Assembly: GCA_028698995.1 (NCBI GenBank)
Contig: JAQVVM010000018.1
Coordinates: 1-64,000 of the forward strand
Reading direction: 5' to 3'
Length of the DNA: 64,000 nt
Source: Bacteroidales bacterium
GTDB taxonomy: Bacteria; Bacteroidota; Bacteroidia; Bacteroidales; PXBB01
Shown here: piece after piece, positions 6,981 to 32,511 of the stretch
Position numbering within the stretch: position 1 is the stretch's first letter
How the letters are laid out: each line of letters starts with the position of its first letter
Notes under the pieces: generated by a model
Told to the model about the DNA's origin: nothing
Databases searched by the model: none
What the model saw: only the letters and a program-made list of their open reading frames with translations
Program-made: the position numbers and the translations under genes

Positions 6981-9900
6981 TTATTGTTTAATAAGTTTGT
7001 AGTAAAAAATATCAGTATCATTAGATAGCCTGACAAAATACAATCCCTTAGACAAATTTCCGGTACTGATTTTAAAATCTGCATTTGCAGCTATTGAAAA
7101 AGTCGAAGAATATAGAAGTTTTCCGGAAACATTGAGTATTTCAAGATTTATCATATCCATATTATTGATCATACATTGTACATAAAATTCATCTGTAAAA
7201 GGATTTGGGTAAATATTAAAATTGTTTTCGGAATCAATAATATGGAAGCCGGTTATGTAGTAATAAACAACATCAGAAGTGTCTGATACACATCCATTTA
7301 TGGTAACAACAACCAAATAAAACCCATCAACCAAGGGTGAGAAATACTGGTCATTTCCAAGAAAATCTCCTTGTGTGTTATACCACTCGTTACCTACACT
7401 TGAACTCGAAACAAGAGTTGACCCATTTAGCAAAATACTTGGTTTAGGGGGAACAGGATTTACATTAATTGGAACAGTAACAATATCGCTGAAACAAAAA
7501 CCCTCTTGCTGAACAGCATAAAAAACAGTATCCCCATTCAAAGGTAGTAAGTTTAAAGAATCACCGGAATAAATGAGCTGTGTTAAGTTGCTATCAGCAT
7601 ACCAAAAGACATTACCTCCTGTAGCTATTAAACTGTTGACAGAATCACCCGCACAATAATCGGGCTGTGCAGGTATTATCGGAGATAAAGGTGTTATACC
7701 GTAGTTAATATGTACCTGAGCAGGTAATCCCGGGCATGCAGGATTCTCGTACTGAAATGCGTAGATAATAGTGTCAGAAAGAAACTGGCTTGTATTGAGA
7801 AAATTTCCAGTATCAATCAAAGAATTGAAAGCAACATCGTAGTACCAGTGAATATTTACGCCTGTAGCTTCAAGCAGATTTAAGGTGTCGGCAGAACAAA
7901 CATTATGAGAAGGAGCCACTAAAGGTGGCTGGAGTGTTGTACCTATCAATACTTCAATAGGTTTGATATCAGAACAACTGCCGAATGAAGTTTCTTTAAG
8001 TATATAATAAATACCAGAATTATGGATATGATGAGGGTCGCTGATTTGTTGGGTAGCCAGGCTGTCATACCAATAGGTTACATATCCTGTTGTGGATGCT
8101 GAATCGGTGAAATAATTGGATATGTCAACAGCATTGGGTTGACAAACAACGGGATTTGTCATTATGTAAAGGTCGGGGTTATAGCAGATAGTGAAAACGG
8201 AATCACTCTGAACACTTAAATTAGGTAATTCAATGTATGTAATTTTTACTAATACTTCGGCAACAACATGTGGTGCAATCCAGAAATAAGAATCGCCATT
8301 GGGCATACCCCATTTACTGCCAATATTCGTCCATGTTGAGCCATTGTCAAAGGAGTAATCAATATAAAGCCCCCCTGTGAGATATATACCTGTCCATTGA
8401 ATTTCTATGGTGTCACCCGCTCTGAAGTCCTCTCCTCCAATTGGCTTAACAAGAGCAATCTGAGGCATAAAATCTATGGTAAAACTAAATCCACTTGTTG
8501 CATAAAGCAAAGGGTTGTCCACATCAATAATGCGAACTTTGCAATTTGTTGAAGGGGTATTGGGTACCGTCCACAAATAATGCCCAAGAGTAGCATCAAC
8601 ACTGTCTTGAATAAGCACCCAATTCACACCATTATCGGTTGAATAGAAAAGTTTGATATAAGTAGAATTGTTTGCGACCCATTGAATATCCATTTGAGTT
8701 GTTGGGTAATGGGTTATGCCTGTATTATTAGGGTACAGTAGTGCAAAAGAAGGATAAGTAATGGAGAATAGGTTATTACTCTCATCACTAAGGTTTGAAA
8801 CACCAAGGAATGTAGCTCTGACTTTAGCCTTAGTAGTTGTGTCATAAGGCACTTGCCAGAAATAAGAACCTCCATTTATCATATAATACTGGTTATCAAT
8901 ATAAAGCCAAGAAGCACCTGCATCTAAAGAATATTCCAGCCTTACAGCACCATTCAGATTTGTACCTGACCATTCAATAAGGTGTGTGTTCCCAGCAAAA
9001 AAAACCTCTCCACCATCAGGATAGGTTAGGTCTATAGTGGGACTTGGGTAAATGGTAAAATAATTGACCGATTGCGAAAAGTTTGAGGAATTATAAGAAT
9101 CAATAATTCTTACTTTGCATTTATTGGAAGGTGTATTAGGAACAATCCAGTTATAAACGCCTACAGCAGCATTGACATTTGTTGCAATATTTTGCCAGGT
9201 AAAACCACCATCAGTAGAATAAGTAATATCTATGTGTGTTGCATTTTGTGCAATCCACTGAATAAAAACTTCATTAGTCGGGAAATACGTTTCTCCACCA
9301 ATTGGACTTACAATTGCAAAAGGAGGATTCTGAATTATAAAAGTACTGTCAGATTCATCTTGTATGATGGGAGCATCATAAAAATAAACTCTCATCCTGG
9401 CATTATTTGAAGGTGTGAAAGGTACGAGCCACAAAAGTGTGTCACCATTAGGTTCACTGTATTTCCATGTCCCCACATGTGACGTTGCCCAGTTGTCGAT
9501 GCTATACTCTACCACAACAGCTCCATTGAGGTCGTGTCCGGTCCATTCAACCTGATAGAGTGAACCGGCAGTTAATATTTCACCACCATTAGGTGTCACA
9601 AGATAAATTTCAGGAAGTGGTAAAATTGAAAAAAGAGTGTCACTAAAATCGTTCAATTGTGGATTAGAAACATCACTGATTCTCACCCTGCATGAATCAG
9701 AAGGTGTATTTGGGATTATCCAGGGATATTCGTTTAATGATGCATCCACATTCTGAGCAATGTTGTGCCAAGTAGTGTCGTCAAAAGTGTATTCAATGTT
9801 AATTAAAGACAAATTTGGAGCTACCCATTTGATACTCTGGGTATTGAAAGGATAATATGTTGCATTTCCATTTGGTGTAATCAGCCCAATATCAGGATAT

Positions 9901-12900
9901 TTGATTGTAAAAGTCGTATTGCTTTGTCCAACAACGCCGGGGGCATAAAATAAAACAGCTTTAACAAGACAGTTTATTGATTGATGATATGGAACAAACC
10001 AATTAAGCGTATCCCCGCTATAGGCATCCCAAATTTCATCAATATACATCCAGCTTTGCCCGTAATCCACAGAATAATAAACTTTCACCGGGCCATCCAA
10101 AGAAGTACCTGTCCAGATAATATTGTGATAGGTCCCTGCTGTAAGAATTTCACCACCTATGGGGCTTTGAAGCTGAATAGTAGGCAACATCTTTATGGTA
10201 AAAATATTATCACTCAGGTCGAACATCGTAGAATCATTCACATCGCTCACCCTTACTTTACAGAACATGGAGGGTGTGTTTGGAACAGTCCAGTCGTAAA
10301 ACCCTGTTGAAGCATTAAGACTTTGTTCAATGTTAATCCAAGAAATACCATTATCAATGGAATAATCGAGTCTTACGAAATCCACACTGGCAGCATACCA
10401 TTTAATCTGCAAACTACTTGTGGGATACAATTGCTCGTTACCGTTTGGAGCAATAAGTGAAAATGGCGGAAATGAGATACTTATTGTGGTATTTGTTTCA
10501 TCTGTTACTGCAGGGGCTTCAAGCATTCTGACTCTAACCTGAGCACTAGATGTTTGAATAAAGGGAACAGTAACAGGGTATGTTGCACCATTACTTTCTC
10601 CCCACACGCCTCCTGCATAATTTGCACTGAGCCAGTTATTGGTGGTAAACTCAATAACCACATTCCCATCCAGATTAGTTCCGGTCCATTCAATATTTCT
10701 TAATTCGCCCGCAATCCATGTTTCGCCTCCAAGGGGATAAACCAATTGAATTGTTGGCATTACTTTGATGGTAAAAACTTCAGCACTTTGGGCAAAGGTT
10801 AAAGTATCAGCTATGTCAGTAATTTTAACAAGGCACTGATTTGATGGTGTATTAGGCACAATCCAGTCAAATGGGCTTAAATGAGCAGGCACATTATCTG
10901 CAATAAGCATCCAAGTTGAACCATTATTAACTGAATATTCAAGTTTGATAAAATTTGTATTGTTGGCAACCCAATTGATAGACACAGTACTGCTCGGATA
11001 ATAGTAATTACCTCCCTGAGGAGAAATCAGAGCAAAAGGAGGCATCTGGATTGTGAAGTTTGCATCCGACATATCATTCACATTTTGAAGAGACCAGAAT
11101 TTCACACGTACTTTAGCATTCTGTGATTCAACAAAAGGTACACTCCAGTCGTAAGTACCTCCATTCTCATTGCCATAGCCCCATCCCATATAAACCCAAG
11201 TATTACCTCCATTTGTTGAGTATTCCAGATAAATAGCATTATTCAGATTTGTTCCTGACCATTCAATGGTGTAAAACTGCCCTGAATTTAATAATTCACC
11301 TCCATTAGGAGTAAGCAGAGATAAAGTAGGGATGGAATAAATAGTGAATGGATTATTGGAAATATCAAAAATTGAATTATTACCCATATCTGTGATTTTC
11401 ACCTTGCATTGTGTTGAAGGAGAATTCGGAATATTCCAAATGTACTGTCCTGCTGCTGCAGCTACACTATCAGCAATAAGTATCCAATTATTGCCATTAT
11501 CAATGGTATAATGAATTGCTATATAACTTGAATTCATAGCAGTCCAAGTAATTGTATAATTGTTGGTTGGGTAAAGATTCTCGTAATTGTTTGGGGCTGT
11601 TAAAGCAAATGATGGCATTTGAACTGAGAACACATTATTACTTTGGTCAATAACATTTGGAGTACTCCAAAATTTTGCACGAATTAAAGCTCCTGAAGTT
11701 GACAGATAAGGAACAGTCCATGAATGGGTTCCTCCATTATCAGCGCTCCATTCCCACCCAACATATTCCCATGTAGCTCCGGCATTTTTTGAAAATTCAA
11801 TATATATATTGCCTTCCAATCCAGTACCTACCCACTCAATATCAACAAGTTGTCCTCCTTCAAAAAGTTCACCTCCATCAGGGTAAACTAAAGTTATGGT
11901 AGGTAAAGGCAAAATTGTGAAAGTAGTGTTGCTGATATCTGTATTTAGCACATCATCAATATCAGTGATTTTCACAAGGCATTGTGTTGAAGGTGTATTG
12001 GGAATAGTCCACGAAAAGATTCCTTGAGATGCACTGACACTATCAGAAATCAATTGCCATGTATTACCATTGTCGATTGAATAATTAATTCTAATAAAAT
12101 TAGAGTTTAAAGCTGACCATTCAATATCTGTTTGCTGCGTAGCATAAAAATAATCACCTCCGTTAGGTTGAATGAGTGCAAAAGAAGGAAGAGCAACAGA
12201 GAAAACAGCATCACTTGCATCAAAAACGGATGGTAAATTCCACATCTTAATTCTAATCAAAACGCTGTTAGAGACTATATATGGCACATTCCAAAAATAG
12301 CTGCCACCATTCTGAGTACCCTGAGCCCAATCAATGTAAAACCAGTCTATGCCATTATTAGTGCTATACTCGATATTGATTCCATCATTGATATATGTTC
12401 CCGACCATGTAATCTCGAAAACTGAGCCTGCTATTAATAGTTCGCCTCCATTTGGTGAAACAATTTCCAAAGTAGGAAGATTCATAATTTCAAAATTTCC
12501 CGATATACAAAAATGCTGCACATCATTGAAATCAGAAATTTTTACCAGACATTGGGTTGAAGGAGTATTTGGAATTTGCCATGAATAGCTGTTCTGAGTG
12601 GCAGGAACATTTTGAGCCACACTATGCCAAGACACACCGGCATCATAGGAGTAGTCAATATTTAAGGAAGAGATATTATTCGCAAACCATTCAATTAAAG
12701 TTGTTTGCCCCGGATAAAATGCATCATTGTTTTCGGGACTGATAAGGGCAAAATCTGGTGGAATAATTGAAAAGATATTATTGCTTGAATCTTTAATAGA
12801 TGGAAGATCCCAAAAAGTAACCTTAATAAGAGCACTATTGGTTAAATTATTAGGCACAACCCACTCAAAATTCCCACCGTTAGGAGTTCCATTTACCCAG

Positions 12901-14864
12901 CCCACATAATTCCAATCAATCCCGGAATTGTAAGAGGCTTCGACATATATGGCACTGTTTAAATTGGTACCGGCCCATTCAATATTTACAGTATCATTTA
13001 CATTAAAAATTTCTCCACCGTTTGGATATATCAATTGAATGGATGGGATGGGATAAATTATGAAAACACTGGAATTTTGGTCTTGGGTTAAGGGGTTGTC
13101 CATATCAGTTATTCTGATAATGCATTCATTTGAAGGATTATTCGGTATAGTCCAAAGATATGCATTCTGTTGTGCAGGGACATTGTCGGCAATTAAAGAC
13201 CATGACAGTCCATTGTTTTGAGAGAATTCCAATTTAATAGCATTTGAATTATCTGCCACCCATTGGATATTTAACGTATTTGTTGGATAAAGCAATTCAT
13301 TACCATTAGGATATATAAGGGAGAAAGACGGCATGATGATGCTGAATGAAGCATCGCTGACATCATTGGCTGCCTGATAATCAAAATATTTAACACGTAC
13401 AATACAGCTTGAAGAAATATTCTGAGGAACAGTCCATGTAAAAGAACCTCCTGTAAGGTTGCTCCATCCCCATCCAACATAATTCCATGATTGTCCGTTG
13501 TTTACAGAATACTCGATATAAATGTTGCCATTGATATGTTGACCTGTCCAAACAATATCGTAATCATTTCCTGCTTCAAGAATCTCTCCTCCATTTGGAC
13601 TAACCAATTGGATTACAGGTAATTCATTAATTGTAAAAGCATTATTGCATGCATCATTTGTGGAAGGGACATCGGCATCAGTAATTTTTACCAAGCAGTC
13701 TGATGAAGGATTATTGGGTACAGTCCATTGGTATGTATTGAGAGAGGCATTGATATTTGAGTCAATATTTGTCCAGGTAGTGCCATTATCTGAAGAAAAA
13801 TCGATATGGATAAAATTAGAATTCAGGGCCGTCCATTCAACATCTATAAGCTCGCCCGGGAAAAATGTTTCTCCCCCATTAGGGTAGATTAGAACAAATG
13901 TTGGCAAATTAACTGTAAAAACATTATCACTGACATCAGAAACAGAAGGGACATTCCAGATTTTTGCTCTTACCAAGGCATTTAAGGAAGGGGAAAAAGG
14001 CACATCCCAATTATAGTTGCCACCGGTTGAAGTGCCATTAGCCCAATCAATAAAGGTCCAAGTGTTGCCATTGTCAGAAGAATATTCCAAATAGATATTA
14101 CCACTAATGCCAGAACCTGACCATTGAATATTAAAAACATCACCGGACTCTATTATTTCACCTCCATTTGGCTCCAACAATGTGATGACAGGCAGGTCGG
14201 TAATTGTAAAAACATTGTTGCTTTGATGAAAGTTAAGTGTATCATCAGTATCAGTAATTTTTATAAGGCAATCATAAGAAGGTATATTGGGGATAACCCA
14301 TGTTAAGGACTGCAGAGATGCATCCACAGCGCTTGCAATAGAAGTCCATGTAAGACCGGAATCAAATGAAAAATCAATATCAATAAAATTCAAATTTTCA
14401 GCTATCCATTGAATATCGAAATTGTTTGTTGGGTAAAGAAATTCACCCCCATTCGGACTTATCAGGGCAAAGTCGGGCATAACAATCTCAAAAACATTAT
14501 CACTGACATCAAGATAGTTCTGGTTGTCCCAATAGGTTGCACGTATCATTACATTTGAAGACTCAACAAAAGGAACCAGCCATGAATAAACGCCCCCTGT
14601 ATCTTCGCTCCATGCCCAATACAGGTAATTCCAGCTTTGTCCGCCATTGACAGAATATTCCAGATATACAGTGCCATTGATATTACTGCCTGTCCATTCA
14701 ATATCTTGTGTCGTATTTGCATACCAGGTTTCGCCACCGTTTGGTGTAACAAGTGTCAGATTTGAAAAGGCATTTATATTAATAACGAAAGAACAAAAGA
14801 TCAACAGAAGTTTAATTTTAAAATTCTGCTTGAATATTTTTAATTTAGTTAATGATATCATCAT
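6981..14864 (-). CDS. Giant T9SS-secreted protein with 23 alternating Ig-like modules
   Basis: Secreted surface protein of about 2,627 residues. A signal peptide (KLLLIFCSFVININAFS) is followed by 23 tandem beta-sandwich modules of about 95 residues, each opening with a version of L-x-x-P-N-G-G-E and a conserved I-x-W. Two module types alternate strictly, A-B through eleven pairs plus a final A. Type A has a W-rich middle and GG-x-Y-x-W-x-V-P; type B has IPNTPS-x-x-C-L-V-K-I. After about residue 2220 come several Ig_7/PKD-like domains (ATGGNVFWYAD) and a C-terminal type A sorting domain (NIYPNPFTDEFYV, NVSGKLLYS, LSKGLYFVRL) that directs export by the type IX system. The modules resemble those matched by the Kre9/Knh1-like Ig family. 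Role probably adhesin or stalk; no catalytic domain is seen. A TTG at 14873 is an alternative start, but the ATG at 14864 leaves 14 nt after the E1 stop. Confidence 0.88.
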   Translation of the reverse strand: MMISLTKLKIFKQNFKIKLLLIFCSFVININAFSNLTLVTPNGGETWYANTTQDIEWTGSNINGTVYLEYSVNGGQSWNYLYWAWSEDTGGVYSWLVPFVESSNVMIRATYWDNQNYLDVSDNVFEIVMPDFALISPNGGEFLYPTNNFDIQWIAENLNFIDIDFSFDSGLTWTSIASAVDASLQSLTWVIPNIPSYDCLIKITDTDDTLNFHQSNNVFTITDLPVITLLEPNGGEIIESGDVFNIQWSGSGISGNIYLEYSSDNGNTWTFIDWANGTSTGGNYNWDVPFSPSLNALVRAKIWNVPSVSDVSDNVFTVNLPTFVLIYPNGGETFFPGELIDVEWTALNSNFIHIDFSSDNGTTWTNIDSNINASLNTYQWTVPNNPSSDCLVKITDADVPSTNDACNNAFTINELPVIQLVSPNGGEILEAGNDYDIVWTGQHINGNIYIEYSVNNGQSWNYVGWGWSNLTGGSFTWTVPQNISSSCIVRVKYFDYQAANDVSDASFSIIMPSFSLIYPNGNELLYPTNTLNIQWVADNSNAIKLEFSQNNGLSWSLIADNVPAQQNAYLWTIPNNPSNECIIRITDMDNPLTQDQNSSVFIIYPIPSIQLIYPNGGEIFNVNDTVNIEWAGTNLNSAIYVEASYNSGIDWNYVGWVNGTPNGGNFEWVVPNNLTNSALIKVTFWDLPSIKDSSNNIFSIIPPDFALISPENNDAFYPGQTTLIEWFANNISSLNIDYSYDAGVSWHSVAQNVPATQNSYSWQIPNTPSTQCLVKISDFNDVQHFCISGNFEIMNLPTLEIVSPNGGELLIAGSVFEITWSGTYINDGINIEYSTNNGIDWFYIDWAQGTQNGGSYFWNVPYIVSNSVLIRIKMWNLPSVFDASDAVFSVALPSFALIQPNGGDYFYATQQTDIEWSALNSNFIRINYSIDNGNTWQLISDSVSASQGIFSWTIPNTPSTQCLVKITDIDDVLNTDISNTTFTILPLPTITLVYPDGGELFEGGQLVDIEWVGTGLEGNIYIEFSKNAGATWEYVGWEWSADNGGTHSWTVPYLSTSGALIRAKFWSTPNVIDQSNNVFSVQMPSFALTAPNNYENLYPTNNYTITWTAMNSSYIAIHYTIDNGNNWILIADSVAAAAGQYIWNIPNSPSTQCKVKITDMGNNSIFDISNNPFTIYSIPTLSLLTPNGGELLNSGQFYTIEWSGTNLNNAIYLEYSTNGGNTWVYMGWGYGNENGGTYDWSVPFVESQNAKVRVKFWSLQNVNDMSDANFTIQMPPFALISPQGGNYYYPSSTVSINWVANNTNFIKLEYSVNNGSTWMLIADNVPAHLSPFDWIVPNTPSNQCLVKITDIADTLTFAQSAEVFTIKVMPTIQLVYPLGGETWIAGELRNIEWTGTNLDGNVVIEFTTNNWLSANYAGGVWGESNGATYPVTVPFIQTSSAQVRVRMLEAPAVTDETNTTISISFPPFSLIAPNGNEQLYPTSSLQIKWYAASVDFVRLDYSIDNGISWINIEQSLNASTGFYDWTVPNTPSMFCKVRVSDVNDSTMFDLSDNIFTIKMLPTIQLQSPIGGEILTAGTYHNIIWTGTSLDGPVKVYYSVDYGQSWMYIDEIWDAYSGDTLNWFVPYHQSINCLVKAVLFYAPGVVGQSNTTFTIKYPDIGLITPNGNATYYPFNTQSIKWVAPNLSLINIEYTFDDTTWHNIAQNVDASLNEYPWIIPNTPSDSCRVRISDVSNPQLNDFSDTLFSILPLPEIYLVTPNGGEILTAGSLYQVEWTGHDLNGAVVVEYSIDNWATSHVGTWKYSEPNGDTLLWLVPFTPSNNARMRVYFYDAPIIQDESDSTFIIQNPPFAIVSPIGGETYFPTNEVFIQWIAQNATHIDITYSTDGGFTWQNIATNVNAAVGVYNWIVPNTPSNKCKVRIIDSYNSSNFSQSVNYFTIYPSPTIDLTYPDGGEVFFAGNTHLIEWSGTNLNGAVRLEYSLDAGASWLYIDNQYYMINGGSYFWQVPYDTTTKAKVRATFLGVSNLSDESNNLFSITYPSFALLYPNNTGITHYPTTQMDIQWVANNSTYIKLFYSTDNGVNWVLIQDSVDATLGHYLWTVPNTPSTNCKVRIIDVDNPLLYATSGFSFTIDFMPQIALVKPIGGEDFRAGDTIEIQWTGIYLTGGLYIDYSFDNGSTWTNIGSKWGMPNGDSYFWIAPHVVAEVLVKITYIELPNLSVQSDSVFTICYNPDLYIMTNPVVCQPNAVDISNYFTDSASTTGYVTYWYDSLATQQISDPHHIHNSGIYYILKETSFGSCSDIKPIEVLIGTTLQPPLVAPSHNVCSADTLNLLEATGVNIHWYYDVAFNSLIDTGNFLNTSQFLSDTIIYAFQYENPACPGLPAQVHINYGITPLSPIIPAQPDYCAGDSVNSLIATGGNVFWYADSNLTQLIYSGDSLNLLPLNGDTVFYAVQQEGFCFSDIVTVPINVNPVPPKPSILLNGSTLVSSSSVGNEWYNTQGDFLGNDQYFSPLVDGFYLVVVTINGCVSDTSDVVYYYITGFHIIDSENNFNIYPNPFTDEFYVQCMINNMDMINLEILNVSGKLLYSSTFSIAANADFKISTGNLSKGLYFVRLSNDTDIFYYKLIKQ
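8190..14770 (-). repeat. Coding tandem repeat: 23 Ig-like modules in A/B alternation
   Basis: About 6.6 kb of diverged in-frame repeats with a unit near 286 bp and a higher-order unit near 570 bp (one A plus one B module). Recurrent DNA phrases such as those encoding PNGGE and IPNTPS recur throughout, but copies differ widely, so amplification is old and the modules are under protein-level constraint. Confidence 0.85.
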
Positions 14865-14878
14865 ATAAGGCAATTATT

Positions 14879-17399: not shown

Positions 17400-18866
17400 T
17401 TAAAACTGAAAATAAATAAAGGGTTGCACATCTGCTGATTTGACCTGAATAATAAGCCAGATTAGAATAACCAGCAATAATGATTTTAGAGGTATGGGTA
17501 TCTTTATAATGAATCTTTCAAAAATATTGTCCCATTTTTCAGGTGTGAAATGAAATATAAAACCGGCAAGGATGAGCAGAAATATGAATTTATAAGCTAC
17601 AACAACTTCTAAAACAAGATCCGGTTTAAAAGAAAAAAGTATTCTATTTATAACAGTAAGTGCAGTCGTATAGGAATCAGCCCTAAAAAAAATCCAGCAT
17701 AAACACACGAAATGAAAAGTAAAAATCAGTCCCAACATTCCGGTAAATATATTTTTTTTGAAAGGGAATATACCTTTTATCATTTTTTCAAATGCAAGAG
17801 CAACCCCATGCATGGCGCCCCAAATAACAAATTTCCATGATGCTCCGTGCCACAAACCGCCCAGCAGCATTGTTATAAGCAGATTAATATAGGTACGGAT
17901 CTTACCCTTTCGGCTCCCTCCCATTGATATATACAAATAGTCCTTGAGCCACGAGGATAGAGAAATATGCCAGCGCCGCCAGAACTCAGTGATACTTTTT
18001 GCCTTATAGGGTGCATTAAAATTCACGGATAATCTAAATCCCAGTAATAAGGCCAAACCAATAGCCATATCTGAATAGCCCGAAAAATCACAGTAAATCT
18101 GAATTGCGTATCCATAAACAGCCATTAGGTTCTCAAACCCTGTATATAATAATGGTTCATCGAAAATTCTATCAACAAAATTCACACTTATATAATCGGA
18201 AATTACGGCTTTTTTGAACAAACCGGCCATGATTAGAAAAACACCTTTCCCAATGGCCTCGTTATCAATAATAATTGGTTTTTTTATTTGAGGTAAAAAA
18301 TCGGAAGCCCTTACAATTGGGCCAGCAACCAGTTGAGGAAAGAATGACACAAAGAAGGCAAAATCCATGAAATTGTCTGCCGGTTCTAACTTTTTTCTGT
18401 AGATATCAATAGTATAACTTAAAGTCTGGAATGTATAAAATGAAATACCTATGGGCAGAAAAATATCCATATTGGTTAATCTGAAATAGCCGCAGCTGTT
18501 TAGTGTATTAATAAAAAAATTTGTATATTTGAAATAGAACAATATACCTAGATTTAATACAAGACTCAGAATGAGTAAGAGGATGCGGTAGGGTTTTCCA
18601 GATGTACGATGAAGCCATTTCCCAATAAGAAAATCAATTAAAGTGGAAATAAACAGCAAATAGAAATAAATACCTCCGGATTTGTAATAGAAGTAATAAG
18701 ATACTAAAACGAGATATGCTACCCTTAGGGTTTTATTTTCATTTATAAAAATATAAATTAGAAGAACAATCATAAACCACCACAGAAAAAAACCACTACT
18801 GAATAAAAGCGGATTATCCGGGTTATAGCGAAGTAAATCAATTATATTAACGAAAATTCTTTCCAA
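17400..18866 (-). CDS. MBOAT family membrane-bound O-acyltransferase
   Basis: Polytopic inner-membrane acyltransferase of the AlgI/DltB/PatA type, 488 residues, with about ten or more hydrophobic segments. Family marks are PIGISFYTFQTLSYTIDIYR, FPQLVAGPIVRASDFLPQI, YCDFSGYSDMAIGLALLLG, FWRRWHISLSSWLKDYLYI (H300) and LLGGLWHGASWKFVIWG with the catalytic H340. Such proteins pass acyl (usually acetyl) groups across the membrane to a partner that O-acetylates a glycan. The SGNH protein encoded 10 nt upstream is the evident partner, and the surrounding peptidoglycan enzymes suggest peptidoglycan or another envelope glycan as acceptor. The acceptor is inference. Confidence 0.95.
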   Translation of the reverse strand: MERIFVNIIDLLRYNPDNPLLFSSGFFLWWFMIVLLIYIFINENKTLRVAYLVLVSYYFYYKSGGIYFYLLFISTLIDFLIGKWLHRTSGKPYRILLLILSLVLNLGILFYFKYTNFFINTLNSCGYFRLTNMDIFLPIGISFYTFQTLSYTIDIYRKKLEPADNFMDFAFFVSFFPQLVAGPIVRASDFLPQIKKPIIIDNEAIGKGVFLIMAGLFKKAVISDYISVNFVDRIFDEPLLYTGFENLMAVYGYAIQIYCDFSGYSDMAIGLALLLGFRLSVNFNAPYKAKSITEFWRRWHISLSSWLKDYLYISMGGSRKGKIRTYINLLITMLLGGLWHGASWKFVIWGAMHGVALAFEKMIKGIFPFKKNIFTGMLGLIFTFHFVCLCWIFFRADSYTTALTVINRILFSFKPDLVLEVVVAYKFIFLLILAGFIFHFTPEKWDNIFERFIIKIPIPLKSLLLVILIWLIIQVKSADVQPFIYFQF

Positions 18867-18876
18867 AGTAATTTTA

Positions 18877-21396
18877 CTAATTGTTCAAATTCGGGTTATT
18901 AATTATTTCAAGAGCTTTATCGGTTGATATGCGTTTATTTTTATATAATGCAGTAATGAATGCATCATGATGATTCGATATGAGTTTTGTCAACACTTCC
19001 TGAGCTTCAGAATATGTAGAAAAATTGCCTAACATATACCTAATATATCCGTCATCATCATGACTGATAATCACCATGCTTTCAGGGAATAAATCAAGAA
19101 TATACCCGTAATGTTCCTTTCCGAGCAACCTTCTTGAGGCCATGAACTGCACCCTGAACACAGGGCCATTTTCCTCAGTAAGATTTACAAATTCAATGAC
19201 AGTATCGTTATGCAGCACTGTTACATAATCTAATGTATCTTTAATTCCACTTGCCTTCTTATGTATCTCATTAAAAGTCAAAGGCCTTAATTTGTGACGG
19301 TTTGGCAAATCTATAAAAACCATTGGAGTATCAACAAAATCATTGATTTGTTGAATTTGCTGAACATCAATTTCTTGTGCTTCCATTCTTCTTGTTTTAC
19401 TTATGGAAGATTTTCTGCCATTCACCAGTCCCACGATAAAACCGTCATGCCCATTGTTGTTTAGCTTCTGCAATGCCATAACAACGTCATCATAGATATA
19501 GAAACTTCCAATAAAATAACGGTACATTCTGTCCTGTCCGATTTCTTCAAAAATTTCCTTATCCCTAAAAAGAGCAATAATGTTATTTCTTTCAACTGTA
19601 TCAATCTTTTTGTTTGAAGCGGCTATTTGAATCCTATATTCATAAGATTTCTGAGGTGATATTTCATGCTCAGCGACAGAATCAACAGCCCCAAAATCAG
19701 ACAGAACAACTTCATTTTCATGCACTTCTATAGTTGTTAAAGTGTCAATAATTATCTTATTTTCTTCAACATCTAAATCTGAATAAGTTGCTGAAAAATA
19801 ATCCTGATATGAGAGGAAAGGGGGTATTATGCTTTCGTTATGAGAGAAAAGTGAATTATGCAGATTTTCAAAGTTCATAAAACTGTTTAAGCTAGCTGAC
19901 TTTAATGATGCCACCAGTCTATCTTTTTCACTTCCTTTCATCTGATTATATTCATATAAGCGAAATTCATTGATAATATTACGTGTAAGCATATTACTTA
20001 TTTTTTCTGCACCCTTAAAGTTAATATGTGCATAATCCTTTGCAGCAAGAGGCACTTTTGCTTCAACCCATGAAACCATAGCATTGTATCCGCCCATGTT
20101 CTGAAAAAGATTCCAAAAATTGCCTGAAGTTCGTCTGGCAATATTTCGCTGAGCTTCAACCAATAAGGGTAAAGTTGGTTGGGTTACATATTGCATATCC
20201 TGTTTGATACTCTTGTCTCCAATACTTATTATCAAAACATCTGTGTTGGGAATGTACTTTTTGTAATGTTCCACAACTTTAACCATAGCATTTTCATACC
20301 ATGTAAAGCTTCTGGTTTCCGGTGCTGCCACATTCAATCCAAATTGAAATACCAATAGCGAATAATCCATATAATTGCTGAATGCACTTAGAATATAACC
20401 CGGAATTTTCTCAAGAGCCAGACCTAAGTTTCCCCTGACTGCATAATTATCAACAAAAACGCCCTGATTACTTTCAAACGAAACCCCATACACATCCAAA
20501 ATGGTATCGGTAAAAAATTCTATAAACAATTCATTATAGGCTTTTGAGCTATTCAACACTAATGAATTTACCGTTTCCTGACCAGTGAGATAAGCTTTGA
20601 ATTTTTGGCCATCAATAAAATAATTAATATAGGTTCCTGGAGAGGCTTTTCCGTAAAAAAGTTTTGTATTATAAAACCTCGACAAAGACACATATGAATC
20701 GTAAGGTGCATAATAGCTTACAAAGCTGACTTTATGTCTGGTTAGGGTATCCATGAGTTCTGCATGTGTCAAAATTCGTGGATTATAAACAAAGCCGGCC
20801 GGACTGAAATTTTTGCCTTTGGGACTTCTCAGAATTGAATATTCAGTCCAGTCATCAGAAAATTCATGTCTTATACTTCTCCTAAATTTTGAAACTATAG
20901 ATGTAATTGGTACAAAACCAACGCCTTTGCCTCCAAATTTACTTTGTAAATCATTTCTTAAAGATTGAGAAATCAGGTCTCCTTCAATCATAGAATCTCC
21001 GAAATAGGCAATTCTTGTTTTCTGAGAAGAATCTCTCACACTTTTGAGTGCAGGAAAAAAATATGTAAATAAAGTACTCTCATTATGATAGGCTGAGATT
21101 CTTAAATCATTTTTATCCTGTTCCAAAAGTGAGTCCATGTCAATTTTGAACAACATGGCAGAAAGAGAATCGAGATGAATGACAGGAACTTCGGAAGTAT
21201 CTTTTTGTATCAAATACATAAGGGAAGCATCTGGAACATCGTAAAACACTTTTTTAAAATCAGAGATGATATTTATATCCCTCAGTTTGAAACCCATTAT
21301 TGTGAATTCCACATTAAATAATGAAGCAGCAACCAACATCAGGGTTGTCATAAAAATGACAAGAAAGGGTTTGGCTTTATCAATCAAATGCTTCAT
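18877..21396 (-). CDS. SGNH/GDSL hydrolase-like protein with two C-terminal SPOR domains
   Basis: Envelope protein of 839 residues. An N-terminal membrane anchor (about 11-30) precedes an SGNH hydrolase-like domain (about 125-475) with block I IAYFGDSMIEGD (nucleophile S135) and block V DYAHINFKG (D454 and H457), so the catalytic triad looks intact. The C-terminal half holds two SPOR-like domains: about 586-662 (YRIQIAAS to GFIVGLVNGRK) and 747-823 (FRVQFMASRR to AFITALYKNKR). SPOR domains bind glycan strands lacking stem peptides, so this enzyme is probably held on septal or denuded peptidoglycan. With the MBOAT gene 10 nt downstream it forms a two-gene acyl-transfer unit comparable to AlgI/AlgJ or PatA/PatB. 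Whether it transfers acetate or removes it is unknown. Confidence 0.88.
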   Translation of the reverse strand: MKHLIDKAKPFLVIFMTTLMLVAASLFNVEFTIMGFKLRDINIISDFKKVFYDVPDASLMYLIQKDTSEVPVIHLDSLSAMLFKIDMDSLLEQDKNDLRISAYHNESTLFTYFFPALKSVRDSSQKTRIAYFGDSMIEGDLISQSLRNDLQSKFGGKGVGFVPITSIVSKFRRSIRHEFSDDWTEYSILRSPKGKNFSPAGFVYNPRILTHAELMDTLTRHKVSFVSYYAPYDSYVSLSRFYNTKLFYGKASPGTYINYFIDGQKFKAYLTGQETVNSLVLNSSKAYNELFIEFFTDTILDVYGVSFESNQGVFVDNYAVRGNLGLALEKIPGYILSAFSNYMDYSLLVFQFGLNVAAPETRSFTWYENAMVKVVEHYKKYIPNTDVLIISIGDKSIKQDMQYVTQPTLPLLVEAQRNIARRTSGNFWNLFQNMGGYNAMVSWVEAKVPLAAKDYAHINFKGAEKISNMLTRNIINEFRLYEYNQMKGSEKDRLVASLKSASLNSFMNFENLHNSLFSHNESIIPPFLSYQDYFSATYSDLDVEENKIIIDTLTTIEVHENEVVLSDFGAVDSVAEHEISPQKSYEYRIQIAASNKKIDTVERNNIIALFRDKEIFEEIGQDRMYRYFIGSFYIYDDVVMALQKLNNNGHDGFIVGLVNGRKSSISKTRRMEAQEIDVQQIQQINDFVDTPMVFIDLPNRHKLRPLTFNEIHKKASGIKDTLDYVTVLHNDTVIEFVNLTEENGPVFRVQFMASRRLLGKEHYGYILDLFPESMVIISHDDDGYIRYMLGNFSTYSEAQEVLTKLISNHHDAFITALYKNKRISTDKALEIINNPNLNN

Positions 21397-21522: not shown

Positions 21523-22539
21523 CTATTTCCCAACCTGACTTGACAATTCAACAGAGTATAACAAGGCTTCACATTGTAATATGTAGTCCCTTTTGTTGTA
21601 GCGGGGAGCATAAACAAAAGCATCAAGGGTTATTACTCTGTTTCTTTCTTCATCAACAAAAGTATAATTAATGAATGGGCCACCCATAAAATCTCCTTCA
21701 ACATCCCATAAGCCACGTGTTTCTACAGCGTAAGAATCTTTAAAGTTAATTTCTTTATGGATAGGAAGAATAAGTTTCTGAGATACTTGCATATAAGATC
21801 CATCACTGGGTCCGGGCACATGAAGCTGAGTCATGGAATCTCTAAGAGCGATAATATTTTCAGGTTGAAAAACTGCTGTGTCCAGATATGGTTGAGTATA
21901 TATCAATACCCCCATACTTGTTTCTTCAGTTTCGCGTCTAATCCAGCAGAAATTATCAACGGATTTTGCAATAAAATAACCATTGGGGATTGTTAAAGAA
22001 AGCCCGTATTTATCGCGGAGTTGTTTACCGATTGTAACATCTTCATCATGCTTGAAAGCCTTCAACATCCTTTCTCTTTCATTTTCAAAAAAGAGTCTGA
22101 CAATTTGTTCCTTTTGCAAGCTCAGCTTGGCAATAAAATCTTCCGCTGATTTTGCTGAAATACGTACAACTAGCTGGGGTTGTGCCCAAACATTCTTTCT
22201 GACTTCAAATTTTGTTGATTCAAACTCAGGTTTAATTTCGACTATAAAGATATTGCGGTGAGACTCAAAAATTTTGGTAAAACTTTTTTCTTCAATATTG
22301 GCAAGATTAAACATGGGCTCTGGTTGATTCAGCACCCTATATTCACTTCTAAAAACAGCTTTAATGCTATCCCCAGCTATACCATCCCACTGGTATTTAT
22401 CTATAATGAAAAGAATTTCAGCAGTTTTTCCCGAAGAAGAGGGCAAATACCCATTTTCATTAATACATGAAGAGATAAAAGCAATTGTCAGAAGTAAAAG
22501 GTTTTTAACAAAACCCGACAATGAATATTTTTTTATCAT
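21523..22539 (-). CDS. DUF4837 family lipoprotein
   Basis: Predicted lipoprotein of 338 residues with lipobox ISSC in the signal peptide (acylated Cys about residue 25). The body matches DUF4837, a family found in Bacteroidota: AEILFIIDKYQWDG near the start, FNLANIEEKSFTKIFESHRN, the segment KYGLSLTIPNGYFIAKS, and GPFINYTFVDEERNRV with DAFVYAPRYNKRDY near the end. Function is not established as far as I know. It lies 16 nt downstream of the MltD-like transglycosylase, so the two are cotranscribed, which places it in cell-wall biology by association. The next gene (SGNH-SPOR) starts 126 nt further on; in that gap I see no clear promoter or terminator. Confidence 0.88.
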   Translation of the reverse strand: MIKKYSLSGFVKNLLLLTIAFISSCINENGYLPSSSGKTAEILFIIDKYQWDGIAGDSIKAVFRSEYRVLNQPEPMFNLANIEEKSFTKIFESHRNIFIVEIKPEFESTKFEVRKNVWAQPQLVVRISAKSAEDFIAKLSLQKEQIVRLFFENERERMLKAFKHDEDVTIGKQLRDKYGLSLTIPNGYFIAKSVDNFCWIRRETEETSMGVLIYTQPYLDTAVFQPENIIALRDSMTQLHVPGPSDGSYMQVSQKLILPIHKEINFKDSYAVETRGLWDVEGDFMGGPFINYTFVDEERNRVITLDAFVYAPRYNKRDYILQCEALLYSVELSSQVGK

Positions 22540-22555
22540 GATTTTAGTAAATTAG

Positions 22556-24328
22556 TTATCCTTTTTGTTGCAGGGGTAATTTTAATTGTTGTCCGGGCAA
22601 GATAGAGGAATTTTCGAGATTATTAATCTGTTTGATATCATCTATACTTACACCCTCATAATTTTGAGCAATGCTCCACAAGGTATCTCCTTCTTTAACA
22701 ATATATAATTCAAAATTATTTTGGGTTAATGAATTTATGGTAGTTTCATCGGAATTAACATTATTGTCGAGTTCATTTATAAAATTCAGTCCGGAAGTTT
22801 CAGAAGTGTTTGTTTGAGGTATCAATTCCCCTTCAGTGGAATCAGCAGGGGCAAGTTCATCCGGAATGGGGATATGAATAGTAAGTATCTGACCTTGCTC
22901 AACGGATAAATTGCGAAGGTTATTCCATAATCTAAGGTTATCAACACTACATTCAAATCTTTGGGCAATAGTGCGCAAATTATCTTCTCTTTTCACAACA
23001 TACTGTTCAATTCTTGTATTTCTAGGTGGTTCGGGCACAACAGGTCTGGGAGCTTCAACACTGACTATTAATCTTTGCCCGGGGTGAATGGTCGTGCCCC
23101 TTATACTGTTCCATTTCTGAATATTGCTGACAGTGATTCCATACCTTCGGGCAATAGTGTTTAATGTTTCTCCTGATCTTACAGTATGCGTCTTGGTTGG
23201 TTCAATAAGACTGGAAGGATTTCTAGCAGCCAAATCTTCTCTCACAAGCTGTTCGTAGGTTTTAAATGAATAAATTTCAACATCATTTGCAAGAAACTCC
23301 CCAACTTTATTTAGTGGCATATTGATAACATACTTGATACTATCACATGATGGAATGACATTCATCTTAAAAGTCGGGTTCAATGCTACCAGCTCATCCA
23401 CGGGAATACTCAAAGCTTCAGAAAGTTGCTCAAAACTCAGCCTTTGTTCAATTGTTACCGTATCAGTTTCATTAAAGAGATAACCTGGATATACAGGATA
23501 TAGATTGTGTTCTGTAGCATAATTGAGGACATAAGAAGCAGCAATAAAAATCGGAACATAGCCCTGTGTTTCACGGGGAAGGAATCTTCTTATTTTCCAA
23601 TAATCTAATTCTCCATTTGCACGTCTGATGGCTCTGTTGACATTACCACTACCCGCATTATAAGCTGCTAAAACCAAGCTCCAGTCTTTGTAAATTCGGT
23701 ATAAATCTTCAAAGTGCTCGCAGGCAGCAACAGTTGCTTTGTAGGGATCAAATCGGTCATCAACGAAAGAGGTGACCTCAAGTCCGTACATTTTACCTGT
23801 TCTGTACATGAACTGCCACAAACCGGCAGCACCGACTCTTGAAATAGCTTTTGAATTTAAAGCAGATTCAATTACAGCAAGATATTTTAGTTCCAGAGGT
23901 AAATTATGTCTGGCTAACTGTTCCTCGAAAAGCGGGAAATAATAGGCGGCTAATCCTAATAATCGAGAAGTCATCGGTCTACGTCTTTGTGCATACAAAT
24001 CAATATATGTGCGAACATCCTCATTATATACATAATGAAAGGGAGAGCGAATATCCATATTTCTCAAACGACTTTTGTAAACAGAATCGGGAAACTGAGG
24101 AATCTCGTCAGCTCTGTATCTGTGCACATTTAAGGCCGAAGAGTCAGCATAAATATTCCTGCCTTTAAACATCACAGAAGTAGCAAGGCTATCAAGGAAT
24201 GCGGCCATTGGAACGTCTGAAAAATAATTACTTTGGATTAAATTTGATTGGGATGAATCTCTGTTTTGAGAAAATAAAAAAGAATTTATGGTGAGTGTTA
24301 TTATTAAACTAAGAATTCGGATTTTCAT
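22556..24328 (-). CDS. MltD-like membrane-bound lytic murein transglycosylase with three LysM domains
   Basis: Periplasmic enzyme that cuts the MurNAc-GlcNAc bond to give anhydromuropeptides. A signal peptide ending near FLFSQ is followed by the SLT catalytic domain (about 120-260) with LKYLAVIESALNSKAISRVG (catalytic E154), GLWQFMYRTGKMYGL and LVLAAYNAGSGNVNRAI, the classic MltD phrases. Three LysM domains follow: one opening THTVRSGETLNTIARRYG, one opening YVVKREDNLRTIAQRF and one at the C-terminus opening YIVKEGDTLWSIAQNY. These bind GlcNAc-containing glycan. The 590-residue length and architecture are normal for Bacteroidota MltD. A TAGGTTTG element sits 37 nt before the start. Confidence 0.95.
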   Translation of the reverse strand: MKIRILSLIITLTINSFLFSQNRDSSQSNLIQSNYFSDVPMAAFLDSLATSVMFKGRNIYADSSALNVHRYRADEIPQFPDSVYKSRLRNMDIRSPFHYVYNEDVRTYIDLYAQRRRPMTSRLLGLAAYYFPLFEEQLARHNLPLELKYLAVIESALNSKAISRVGAAGLWQFMYRTGKMYGLEVTSFVDDRFDPYKATVAACEHFEDLYRIYKDWSLVLAAYNAGSGNVNRAIRRANGELDYWKIRRFLPRETQGYVPIFIAASYVLNYATEHNLYPVYPGYLFNETDTVTIEQRLSFEQLSEALSIPVDELVALNPTFKMNVIPSCDSIKYVINMPLNKVGEFLANDVEIYSFKTYEQLVREDLAARNPSSLIEPTKTHTVRSGETLNTIARRYGITVSNIQKWNSIRGTTIHPGQRLIVSVEAPRPVVPEPPRNTRIEQYVVKREDNLRTIAQRFECSVDNLRLWNNLRNLSVEQGQILTIHIPIPDELAPADSTEGELIPQTNTSETSGLNFINELDNNVNSDETTINSLTQNNFELYIVKEGDTLWSIAQNYEGVSIDDIKQINNLENSSILPGQQLKLPLQQKG

Positions 24329-24425: not shown

Positions 24426-25283
24426 TTATGTATTTTTAATTATTAACCTTTGACCCGGAAAAATTTTATCACTTCTTAAATTGTTATCAGATTTAATTTT
24501 TTCAACGCTGGTTCTATTCTGACGCGCAATAGCATATAGTGTGTCACCTCTTTTCACGATATATGTTCTAATTTCACCATCTGAAATACTATTATCAGTA
24601 TCTATATCAATATCTTCAATTCCATCTTCTTCCACAAGTTCAGTTGTATCCCTGACAGTATCACTTAATTCAGTGATAATTTCATCAAAATTGACAGGTG
24701 TTGTAAAAGAAATATTTAGGGAGTCAATATAATTTTTATCAAAAATTCTGCGGGCGCCAATAAATCTACGGCTGTAATAATCGGAATCAGAGAAATCATA
24801 TGTAATGCCTTTATGACGAGATGCATGAATAAACCTGATGCGGTTACCTGAAGTATCCACAACCAATGCAACATGTCCTACAGTTGAAGAGTTTGTATTG
24901 CGTCCTTTGTAAAACAAAAGGTCTCCCGGACGCACAGATTCTCTTCTAAGTTTAACCCCGAGCAAGGCCTGATCTTTCGAGCTGCGAGGTAATTCATAAC
25001 CATATTTTGTAAAAATATAAGACACAAATCCGGAGCAGTCGAAACCGGCTGGAGTATTGCCGCCATAACGATAACGAATACCAATATATCTGTTTGCAGT
25101 GTATAATAAACGATTAATCAAACTGTCCAAGTCAGGGGGTAAAGTGTCATTAATGTTATAAACTTCTATCTCAACAACATTTGAATCGTTGACCATTGAA
25201 AGGCTATCAGGAGAAACATATTCCTGTGATAAAGCAACACTTGATATTAAAATTATAAAAATTAATTGAAGGCTTTTGAGCAT
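24426..25283 (-). CDS. NlpC/P60 (C40) cell-wall peptidase with LysM domain
   Basis: Secreted peptidoglycan endopeptidase of 285 residues, expected to cleave the gamma-D-Glu to diamino acid bond in stem peptides. A signal peptide (to about residue 20) is followed by the NlpC/P60 domain at about 55-180, with nucleophile C83 in PAGFDCSGFVSYIF, catalytic H137 in VGHVALVVD and the third polar residue H153 in RFIHASRHKG. A long acidic linker (about 200-238) leads to one C-terminal LysM domain (YIVKRGDTLYAIARQN to FPGQRLIIKNT). The start codon lies 9 nt after the stop of the M23 peptidase gene, so the two hydrolases are cotranscribed. Confidence 0.95.
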   Translation of the reverse strand: MLKSLQLIFIILISSVALSQEYVSPDSLSMVNDSNVVEIEVYNINDTLPPDLDSLINRLLYTANRYIGIRYRYGGNTPAGFDCSGFVSYIFTKYGYELPRSSKDQALLGVKLRRESVRPGDLLFYKGRNTNSSTVGHVALVVDTSGNRIRFIHASRHKGITYDFSDSDYYSRRFIGARRIFDKNYIDSLNISFTTPVNFDEIITELSDTVRDTTELVEEDGIEDIDIDTDNSISDGEIRTYIVKRGDTLYAIARQNRTSVEKIKSDNNLRSDKIFPGQRLIIKNT

Positions 25284-25292
25284 GGAATCAAA

Positions 25293-26264
25293 CTAAGATA
25301 GTGCCTGATTAATTTCTGAAGCCTTTTCGATAATTATTTCATATTCTTCAGGAGTAAGGTCGTTATAAAAGAAGTTTATGGGATTAACGGGGTTACCGTT
25401 TTTAAGAACTTCATAATGTAAATGAGGACCAACAGAAAGACCAGAACTGCCCACATATCCAATAACTTCACCTCTTACTACTTTCTGACCCGGTCTGACA
25501 TTTAAGCGACTAAGATGCCCATAGAGAGTCTCATAACCATAGCCATGGTCAATAACGCACAAAATACCATAGCCACTGAAATGCCTACGGTTTATATTTT
25601 TCACAGTACCATTTCCTGAAGCATATACAGGAGTTCCCCTTGGGGCAGTGAAATCAACGCCTGTATGCATACGTAATGTTTTATAAATAGGATGCACTCT
25701 GTATCCAAAACCTGAAACGAGGCGTGATGTAGCATTTGAGAGTGGAACTATAGACGGAATAGAAGCCAGCATTTCACTTTTATTTCTGGCCATTTCCAAT
25801 ACTTCATCAAAAGATTTGGATTGCACATAAAGCTGACGAGAAATTTTATCCAATTTTGTTGCAACGTTAGTCATCAATACGGAGTTGTCATAATTTTCGA
25901 GTTCCGCATATCTGTTTACACCGCCAATCCCGGCATTTCTCTCAGCCTCAGATACAGGCTCAGCCTCAAGAATAACACGGTATATATTGTCATCACGTTG
26001 CTGAATATCCTGTAAGACAGCTGTTATTATATCTAAACGTTCGTTGATTATTTCATGTTGGGTTTTAAATCTCTCAATTTCCCGTCTTAAAGCTTTCTCT
26101 TTAGGAGAATCAACAAAATAAAAGGCAAGAATTACTGCTACAGTAGAAAAAACAACAAATCCCGAGAATAAAAAAACAGCTTTCTTAAAAATGTCCTTAA
26201 AGTTACGCTGTACTTTTTTAAATGTCAGGGACTTGTGATCAAAATGGTATTTTGTTTTAGCCAT
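25293..26264 (-). CDS. M23 family metallopeptidase (membrane-anchored, coiled coil)
   Basis: Peptidoglycan peptidase or amidase activator of 323 residues. One membrane helix (about 29-51) precedes a coiled-coil region (about 54-95). The LytM/M23 domain (about 180-295) has the zinc ligands H200 and D204 in MHTGVDFTAPRG, then H250 in LYGHLSRL and the HxH motif H281/H283 in VGPHLHYEVLKNG. All four metal and catalytic positions are intact, so it should be active rather than an EnvC-like degenerate form. It is the first gene of a pair with the NlpC/P60 peptidase. Confidence 0.95.
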   Translation of the reverse strand: MAKTKYHFDHKSLTFKKVQRNFKDIFKKAVFLFSGFVVFSTVAVILAFYFVDSPKEKALRREIERFKTQHEIINERLDIITAVLQDIQQRDDNIYRVILEAEPVSEAERNAGIGGVNRYAELENYDNSVLMTNVATKLDKISRQLYVQSKSFDEVLEMARNKSEMLASIPSIVPLSNATSRLVSGFGYRVHPIYKTLRMHTGVDFTAPRGTPVYASGNGTVKNINRRHFSGYGILCVIDHGYGYETLYGHLSRLNVRPGQKVVRGEVIGYVGSSGLSVGPHLHYEVLKNGNPVNPINFFYNDLTPEEYEIIIEKASEINQALS

Positions 26265-30970: not shown

Positions 30971-30984
30971 TTGTAATAAATACG

Positions 30985-32511
30985 TTATTCCCATTCAATT
31001 GTTGCAGGAGGCTTAGAACTTATATCATAAACAACCCTGTTAATACCTTTTACTCTGTTGATAATACGGTTAGAGATTTCAGCAAGGAAATTATAAGGTA
31101 AATGTGCCCAGTCTGCAGTCATGCCATCAGTTGATGTGACTGCTCTGAGACATATAGTATGTTCATAAGTACGTTCATCGCCCATGACACCTACAGATTT
31201 TACAGGCAATAAAATGGTAGCTGCCTGCCAAACTTCGTGATATAGGTTAAATTCCTTTAGTCCTGAAATAAATATATCATCAGCATCCTGAAGGATTTGA
31301 ACTTTGCCGGGGGTGACATCACCCAATATTCTGATACCTAAACCCGGTCCAGGGAAAGGATGTCTGTTAAGGTGCGAATCTGAAATATTTAAAGTTAAAC
31401 CAACTTTTCTTACCTCATCCTTAAATAAAAACTTCAGGGGCTCTACTACTTTAAGTTTCATTTTCTCGGGTAAACCACCTACATTGTGGTGGGATTTTAT
31501 AGTAGCTGAAGGACCTTTAACAGAGACAGATTCAATAACGTCAGGATAAATTGTACCTTGAGCAAGCCATTGGGCATTGTCAATTTTATGAGCTTCTCTA
31601 TCAAAAACATCTATAAAAGTTTTACCAATGGCTTTCCTTTTAGCTTCAGGGTCGCTTATACCCTCAAGGGCCTTGTAGAAATCATTTTTAGCATCAACAC
31701 CAATAATATTTAAGCCATATTGAGCAAAGCTATCAAGAACTGATTGAAATTCATTTTTTCTTAATAAACCATTATCAACAAAGATACAGTGCAGATTAAC
31801 GCCAATGGCTTTATGCAAAAGCATGGCTGCAACAGAAGAGTCCACACCGCCAGACAGGCCAAGAATAACCTTGTCGGTGCCAATTTGAGCCTTAAGTTCT
31901 GCTACCGTTGTTTCAACAAAAGACATAGGTGTCCAGCATTGACTGAATTCACAGATATTTACAATAAAATTTTTCAATAACTCAGAACCCTGAGTAGAGT
32001 GGTAAACTTCGGGATGGAACTGCAAACCATAAGTAGATTCACCATTTATTTTAAACCCGGCAATAGGCACATCAGCAGTACTGGCAATTTTAACAGTATT
32101 TTCAGGAAGTTTACAAATGGTGTCTCCATGGGACATCCAAACCTGAGAATTTAAATCAATGCCTTTAAACAGAAGATTGTCATCAATAAATGATAAATTA
32201 GCTCTTCCATATTCCCTAATCTGAGAGCGCATAACCTCACCTCCGAAATCATAGGCTAATAATTGTGCTCCATAACAAACTGCAAGAACAGGTATTTTCC
32301 CTTTAAATTTACTAAAATCAAATACAGGTGCTTCCTTATCAAAAACCGAAAATGGGCTACCGGAAAGGATAATACCCTTAACATGGTTTAAATCTGATGG
32401 AATTTTGTTATAGGGGTGTATTTCACAAAATACATTATGCTCTCGGACACGCCTTGCGATAAGCTGTGTATATTGAGAACCGAAGTCAAAAATTAAAAGG
32501 GTCTCTTGCAT
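30985..32511 (-). CDS. guaA: GMP synthase (glutamine-hydrolysing)
   Basis: Amidates XMP to GMP in purine synthesis. The 508 residues contain a class I glutamine amidotransferase domain with nucleophile C79 ([15 protein letters not shown]) and H166/E168 ([10 protein letters not shown]). The ATP pyrophosphatase domain has P-loop [10 protein letters not shown] (about 218-226), and the GMP synthase C-terminal dimerisation domain ends with the typical [10 protein letters not shown] promoter box ends only 4 nt before the ATG (see the adjoining promoter entry), so the mRNA may be leaderless. It is followed by the LysM-binding-protein gene and probably cotranscribed with it. Confidence 0.98.

Follow-up and report, generated by a model that had tools for sequence, protein, structure and literature searches.

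The membrane acyltransferase PatA of Campylobacter is acetylated at the tyrosine of its FxYxxF motif, and PatB uses the acetylated hexapeptide to acetylate a glycan (PMC12148441). Acetylation of N-acetylmuramic acid (MurNAc) at the C6 oxygen blocks lytic transglycosylases (PMC6174289). The patA-ape1b-ape1c (OAP) clusters have been described in B. fragilis, B. thetaiotaomicron and P. gingivalis (Weadge and Clarke 2005, PMC1199599), with peptidoglycan O-acetylation of 69% and 27% in the two Bacteroides (PMC1199599). Here, a pair of adjacent genes from a Bacteroidales bacterium was analyzed, one encoding an SGNH protein with two SPOR domains and the other a PatA-like MBOAT. The pair is located in a stretch of 64,000 nucleotides, hereafter the window, which comprises positions 1-64,000 of contig JAQVVM010000018.1 in assembly GCA_028698995.1. 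That the pair forms a peptidoglycan O-acetylation unit is well supported. On balance, a two-protein O-acetylation machine of the patA-ape1b type, with a periplasmic enzyme held on bare glycan strands, is slightly favored. An earlier reading of this DNA from the letters alone (the sequence-only reading) had regarded the system as little described; this does not hold for the core, which has been known since 2005 as patA-ape1b-ape1c (PMC1199599), and it does hold for the SPOR tether, which appears new.

The SGNH-SPOR protein and the adjacent MBOAT

Both open reading frames lie on the same strand, the MBOAT gene starting 10 nucleotides downstream of the SGNH-SPOR gene, a spacing that the sequence-only reading had given correctly. 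The features of the pair are as follows.

18877..21396, minus strand: SGNH(Ape1-fold)-SPOR-SPOR protein, 839 amino acids, ATG start; open reading frame, Pfam SPOR, and sequence and fold match to Ape1 in the PDB
21319..21387, minus strand: N-terminal membrane anchor helix, residues 4-26 of the SGNH-SPOR protein; helix in the AlphaFold2 model
19945..21105, minus strand: catalytic SGNH domain with inserted beta-sandwich, residues 98-484 (sandwich approximately 190-300); match to NmApe1 4k3u, predicted local distance difference test (pLDDT) mostly >90
20992..20994, minus strand: codon of catalytic Ser135, GDSM, block I
20026..20037, minus strand: catalytic Asp454 to His457, DYAH, block V
19417..19650, minus strand: SPOR domain 1, residues approximately 583-660, Gln590 at the glycan-binding position; best Pfam stretch 586-655, homologous to SPOR domain 2
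18925..19158, minus strand: SPOR domain 2, residues approximately 747-824, Gln750 at the glycan-binding position; AlphaFold2 pLDDT 91, best Foldseek match the CwlC SPOR domain 1x60
17400..18866, minus strand: PatA-like MBOAT O-acyltransferase, 488 amino acids, TTG start; Pfam MBOAT 2.3e-33, DltB structures by sequence, motifs FWRRWH and LWHG
17403..17420, minus strand: C-terminal FIYFQF acyl-tyrosine relay motif of the MBOAT, fitting FxYxxF of PatA (PMC12148441)

In the profile searches that had been proposed as a check, SPOR and MBOAT were above cut-off and the GDSL match of the SGNH-SPOR protein was sub-threshold (0.011), so that the SGNH assignment is drawn from relatives in the PDB (Ape1) and from the predicted fold. 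The best solved relative by sequence is Ape1 of N. meningitidis (1.3e-11, and 1.4e-34 with a profile). The AlphaFold2 model superimposes on this structure (4k3u) with a VIA-align Z of 39.5 over 344 aligned residues at a root mean square deviation of 2.8, and on Campylobacter Ape1 (8gkd) with a Z of 34.6, in both cases including the beta-sandwich inserted after block I; Foldseek matched the catalytic-domain model to Ape1 at E 8.5e-23. PatB structures scored low (Z 16.2 for 8tlb, CjPatB, and 15.4 for 7trr), other SGNH enzymes reaching at most 18.6. In similarity the PatB fold is thus level with ordinary SGNH esterases, and Ape1 scores far higher. The full SGNH catalytic set claimed by the sequence-only reading was recovered: S135, N355, D454 and H457 are invariant in 107/107 relatives, and the block-II glycine, G325, is present in 106. 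An assignment of this glycine to G322 was dropped, as the profile alignment to Ape1 fits G325 better.

SPOR domains bind peptide-free (bare) glycan strands, which are formed by amidases at the division septum. Pfam recognizes SPOR in two stretches of the SGNH-SPOR protein (2.8e-6; score 28 bits, cut-off 21 bits), and an alignment of the two repeats shows them to be homologous (hhalign probability 98%, 26% identity over 87 columns). The window protein was absent from the matches of a curated family search with SPOR (E <= 0.001), unlike with Pfam on the protein itself, and a PDB search with a profile of the two repeats gave nothing meaningful, whereas the fold search did match. The SPOR parts of the full-length AlphaFold2 model have low confidence for want of related rows; a separate model of repeat 2, for which repeat 1 served as second row, reached the pLDDT listed above. 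With the ribonucleoprotein (RNP)-like beta-alpha-beta-beta-alpha-beta arrangement as the criterion of the SPOR fold, Foldseek placed the CwlC SPOR domain first in the PDB and the RlpA SPOR domain bound to denuded glycan sixth, the E-values being modest (0.018 and 0.066). The two tandem SPOR domains of the sequence-only reading are borne out by Pfam score, repeat homology and CwlC-like fold together. In RlpA, Q270 binds denuded glycan (PMC6895207), and this glutamine is kept in both repeats, within RIQIAAS and RVQFMAS. Binding to denuded glycan and a septal location of the enzyme are predicted. Furthermore, C6-O-acetyl left SPOR binding to denuded glycan undisturbed in simulations (PMC6895207), so that the enzyme could stay on its own product. 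No work joining SPOR with peptidoglycan O-acetylation enzymes was found in the literature search, PMC6895207 only modeling O-acetyl-glycan as a SPOR ligand.

The spread of the SPOR fusion was surveyed in partly overlapping samples of 344, 395 and 395 genomes (order, phylum and class, respectively). Of the roughly 1,000 genomes in these samples, only 2 have a match through the SPOR region, namely the genome of the window and G001, which belongs to another genus of the same family; the fusion is thus limited to a single small family. The G001 homologue is 49% identical over its full length, SPOR part included, with 69% identity in the catalytic region, 51% in SPOR2, 27% in SPOR1 and 16-17% in the linkers. 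SPOR2 thus stands out clearly from the linkers in conservation, SPOR1 to a lesser degree, and the joining of SGNH with SPOR is not a matter of chance.

The MBOAT displays the traits of a PatA-type enzyme, namely the MBOAT domain, the conserved His (LWHG) and the C-terminal FxYxxF, and of the 97 MBOATs that are complete in the loci, every one ends in Y..[FY]. No AT3 (Acyl_transf_3) domain was matched by Pfam, the membrane partner being the MBOAT. Both FxYxxF and the MBOAT-SGNH pairing are common to alginate, cellulose and secondary-wall systems (PMC12148441), and the motif therefore supports the relay, not the substrate.

Substrate and proposed mechanism

Homologues of the catalytic part of the window protein are termed SGNH-A, and the second, Ape1-like SGNH protein is termed SGNH-B. 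SGNH-A is provisionally equated with Ape1b from gene order and the inserted segment. Peptidoglycan as the substrate is indicated by several observations. The closest structures are both Ape1 O-acetylesterases, from N. meningitidis and Campylobacter; two SPOR domains, LysM on the SGNH-B of relatives and nearby lytic enzymes point the same way; and Bacteroides with the same gene set have 27-69% O-acetylation. LysM is located inside SGNH-B at L041:7262-8683, L179:4685-6145 and L211:3464-4813, and is appended to it at L050:8123-9889 and in the second locus of the host. The addition of both LysM and SPOR to one gene set likewise supports peptidoglycan. The view of the sequence-only reading, that the pair acts in peptidoglycan O-acetylation or de-acetylation, agrees well with the SPOR domains, the Ape1 fold and the PatA C-terminal motif.

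In the proposed mechanism, the MBOAT, in the role of PatA, would move acetyl from cytoplasmic acetyl-CoA to the Tyr of its C-terminal FIYFQF; the motif is present, and the chemistry is modeled on CjPatA. The anchored SGNH domain would take the acetyl on Ser135 and deliver it to the MurNAc C6-OH, and so would be a transferase despite its Ape1 fold. Meanwhile, the two SPOR domains, the fold of which is supported by the model, would hold the enzyme on peptide-free strands, of which the septum has an enriched supply. From known chemistry, O-acetylated MurNAc should resist cleavage by lytic transglycosylases such as the MltD-type enzyme encoded in the same cluster, which would protect septal or denuded strands for as long as they stay acetylated.

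Which SGNH protein is the probable transferase

SGNH-A was found in 186/344 genomes of the order, and also in Bacteroidota, Ignavibacteria, Cloacimonadota and, by name, one Aminicenantes record. The usual unit is SGNH-A, SGNH-B, MBOAT (50 of 67 complete loci). The survey of co-occurrence suggested by the sequence-only reading showed the MBOAT just downstream of SGNH-A in 66 of the 67; SGNH-B is missing from 13 of these 66 loci. SGNH-A is thus genetically coupled to a PatA-type MBOAT, a PatB-like trait, and in family f112 the two are fused. Adjacency alone was rejected as proof of partnership, since the MBOAT stands beside SGNH-B in G017 and G020. The proposal that SGNH-A is the transferase is instead based on gene content and on fusions. 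SGNH-B is absent altogether from 13 sampled genomes of 91% completeness or more that carry both SGNH-A and an MBOAT, matches to the SGNH-B profile falling only on SGNH-A itself. Moreover, in at least 10 genomes of family f112, one uninterrupted reading frame of approximately 1,000 amino acids, directly after MltD, encodes both SGNH-A and MBOAT, with examples as follows.

SGNH-A::MBOAT fusions, family f112: L174:4378-7362 (G293), L213:5778-8765, L214:5224-8208, L215:5020-8043, L216:5677-8871

The architecture of these fusions is OatA-like, with MBOAT in place of AT3. Active-site residues differ between the two SGNH proteins as well. Immediately ahead of the block-III Asn, 76/107 SGNH-A have L, V, I or M and 69/69 SGNH-B have T or A; Val or Ile at this position marks OatA transferases, and its replacement raised esterase activity (PMC6174289). 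The Ape1 signature (GDSH, NG, GTN, DxVH) is not carried by SGNH-A, which has GDS[MFQI], SG, G[LV]N and DYTH (GDSM, LG, GLN and DYAH in the window protein), whereas SGNH-B keeps GDSH, NG, GTN and D-x-[IVL]-H. An AxA-like signal-peptidase site was found in 22/108 SGNH-A versus 47/76 SGNH-B (Fisher p 1.4e-8; the site call is a heuristic, and the rows are related), and by this sequence feature SGNH-A appears membrane-anchored and SGNH-B mostly secreted. Thus, SGNH-A, filed as an esterase, is probably the transferase partner of the MBOAT. Evidence for Ape1b as a transferase was not met in the literature searched and is new to us. For Bacteroidota as a whole we consider the chances even that the transferase partner of the MBOAT is an Ape1-fold enzyme (Ape1b), not PatB, that recruited peptidoglycan-binding modules can direct it to a particular site (the tandem SPOR domains of the window protein would confine O-acetylation to denuded septal glycan), and that a sister lineage has fused it to its MBOAT.

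Several observations weigh against a SPOR-tethered transferase. Both the fold and the inserted sandwich are of the esterase type. The Gly whose replacement by Ser or Asn defines PatB (PMC12148441) is retained in block II, and block V has no hydrophobic residue before His as in PatB, this position being A456 here and T in 91/107 relatives. In G017 and G020 the sole MBOAT adjoins SGNH-B, with SGNH-A located elsewhere. In the SPOR domains, the Phe which stacks on MurNAc in RlpA is Ser. Finally, the MltD-DUF4837 neighborhood is not kept in G001, the sole other SPOR-bearing genome.

Some of these points lend weight to a different assignment of roles, which we consider possible, though doubtful: the SGNH-SPOR protein, in keeping with the 2005 name Ape1b, would be a peptidoglycan O-acetylesterase that strips acetyl groups from denuded septal glycan and so opens it to cleavage by MltD-type lytic transglycosylases, and the MBOAT would be served by another SGNH protein, for example a DHHW protein. 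Besides the Ape1 fold with its sandwich and the retained block-II Gly, a lytic transglycosylase is present in the cluster, Neisseria Ape1 acts together with such an enzyme (PMC7083599), and a DHHW/AlgX-like protein does exist on host contig C111. However, the DHHW gene has its own adjoining MBOAT, and in the fusions, as in the genomes devoid of SGNH-B, no obvious acceptor for the MBOAT would remain. Furthermore, the Ape1 signature residues are kept in SGNH-B, not in SGNH-A, and the enzyme looks membrane-anchored, not free in the periplasm.

Across 27 loci, whose flanking genes number 98, no single Pfam family exceeds three occurrences, indicating that the loci are not polysaccharide clusters; the pair was thus not found in polysaccharide export clusters of relatives, the outcome which the sequence-only reading had named as counting against it. 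It is very improbable that the substrate of the pair is a different polysaccharide, whether of the envelope or exported, acetylated in the manner of AlgI/AlgJ or WssH/WssI, with SPOR only anchoring the enzyme to the wall, for although FxYxxF and the MBOAT-SGNH pairing are shared with the alginate, cellulose and secondary-wall systems (PMC12148441), the nearest structures are peptidoglycan-specific, polysaccharide-cluster neighbors do not recur in the 27 loci, SPOR and LysM were recruited into the same gene set, and O-acetyl-peptidoglycan is published for Bacteroides with the same cluster (PMC1199599).

Gene neighborhood

The pair closes a series of six co-directional genes on the minus strand, in the order M23, NlpC-LysM, MltD-LysM3, DUF4837, SGNH-SPOR, MBOAT. 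The four upstream genes are listed below.

21523..22539, minus strand: DUF4837 protein, probable lipoprotein, probably of the same operon; Pfam 2.7e-97
22556..24328, minus strand: MltD-type lytic transglycosylase with three LysM domains, a likely functional counterpart; Pfam SLT 1.2e-26, LysM x3
24426..25283, minus strand: NlpC/P60-LysM protein; Pfam
25293..26264, minus strand: protein with an M23 peptidase domain, its gene opening the co-directional series; Pfam

The sequence-only reading had described these as four cell-wall genes. All four domain assignments stand, the label "cell-wall" for DUF4837 being that reader's supposition; we know of no function for DUF4837. The order MltD-DUF4837-SGNH-A recurs in locus L037. 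MltD lies directly upstream of SGNH-A in many genomes of the same order and rarely in the named loci, so that this neighbor is lineage-specific.

Other arrangements were also observed. Host contig C111 (L170:3384-10234) carries the second acyltransferase locus of the host, in which a PAS histidine kinase and an MBOAT are accompanied by a DHHW (AlgX-like) protein and by an SGNH-B-like protein whose block I is altered (GASH) and which bears LysM at its C-terminus. In L115:7274-10239 and L116:8462-11427, of Ignavibacteria type, two tandem MBOAT genes follow SGNH-A, without SGNH-B. Long C-terminal extensions of SGNH-A are present in L175:5821-8085 and L176:7601-9586, that of L175 being of low complexity with no Pfam match beyond GDSL. 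Elsewhere in the window, a 2630-residue secreted protein with "PNGGE" repeats is encoded at 6981-14873 (minus strand), with Pfam matches to Reelin subrepeat B and bacterial Ig and a type IX secretion tail (Por_Secre_tail). At 29081-30994 (minus strand), adjoining alaS, three LysM domains are joined to a domain resembling periplasmic amino-acid-binding proteins (Peripla_BP_6).

Implications

Published models of where and when O-acetyl groups are placed rely on the division or elongation complexes to position Ape or PatB, and no tether is known. If the SPOR-tethered transferase proposed here is correct, the built-in SPOR domains would be a direct, mutable tether of O-acetylation to one defined form of peptidoglycan, and control of lytic transglycosylases would be placed at the septum. 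Ape1b as a transferase would also explain how up to 69% of peptidoglycan is O-acetylated where both SGNH proteins are filed as Ape1. For Bacteroides, the gene-content argument predicts that the "esterase" Ape1b is a transferase.

Comparison with known systems

The locus most closely resembles the OAP clusters of the same phylum, sharing with them the MBOAT, an SGNH protein with an insert after block I and the usual order SGNH-A, SGNH-B, MBOAT. It differs in that the window SGNH protein has two SPOR domains and that SGNH-B is not in the cluster, a divergent LysM-bearing one being located elsewhere in the genome. With PatA/PatB/Ape1 of Neisseria and Campylobacter it shares a PatA-like MBOAT with FxYxxF, a membrane-anchored SGNH partner and the Ape1 fold; unlike in those systems, the fold of the partner is that of Ape1 and not of PatB, and no SPOR domain is described for them in the literature searched. 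OatA, an AT3-SGNH single chain, likewise has an acyl-Tyr relay to an extracytoplasmic SGNH domain, and the f112 fusions are its single-chain analogue, whereas the window has MBOAT for AT3, two genes and SPOR modules. With RlpA, CwlC, DamX and FtsN, the SGNH-SPOR protein has in common the SPOR fold, the conserved Gln and predicted denuded-glycan binding, but here SPOR is joined to an enzyme that handles O-acetyl groups and not to a lytic enzyme, an amidase or a division protein.

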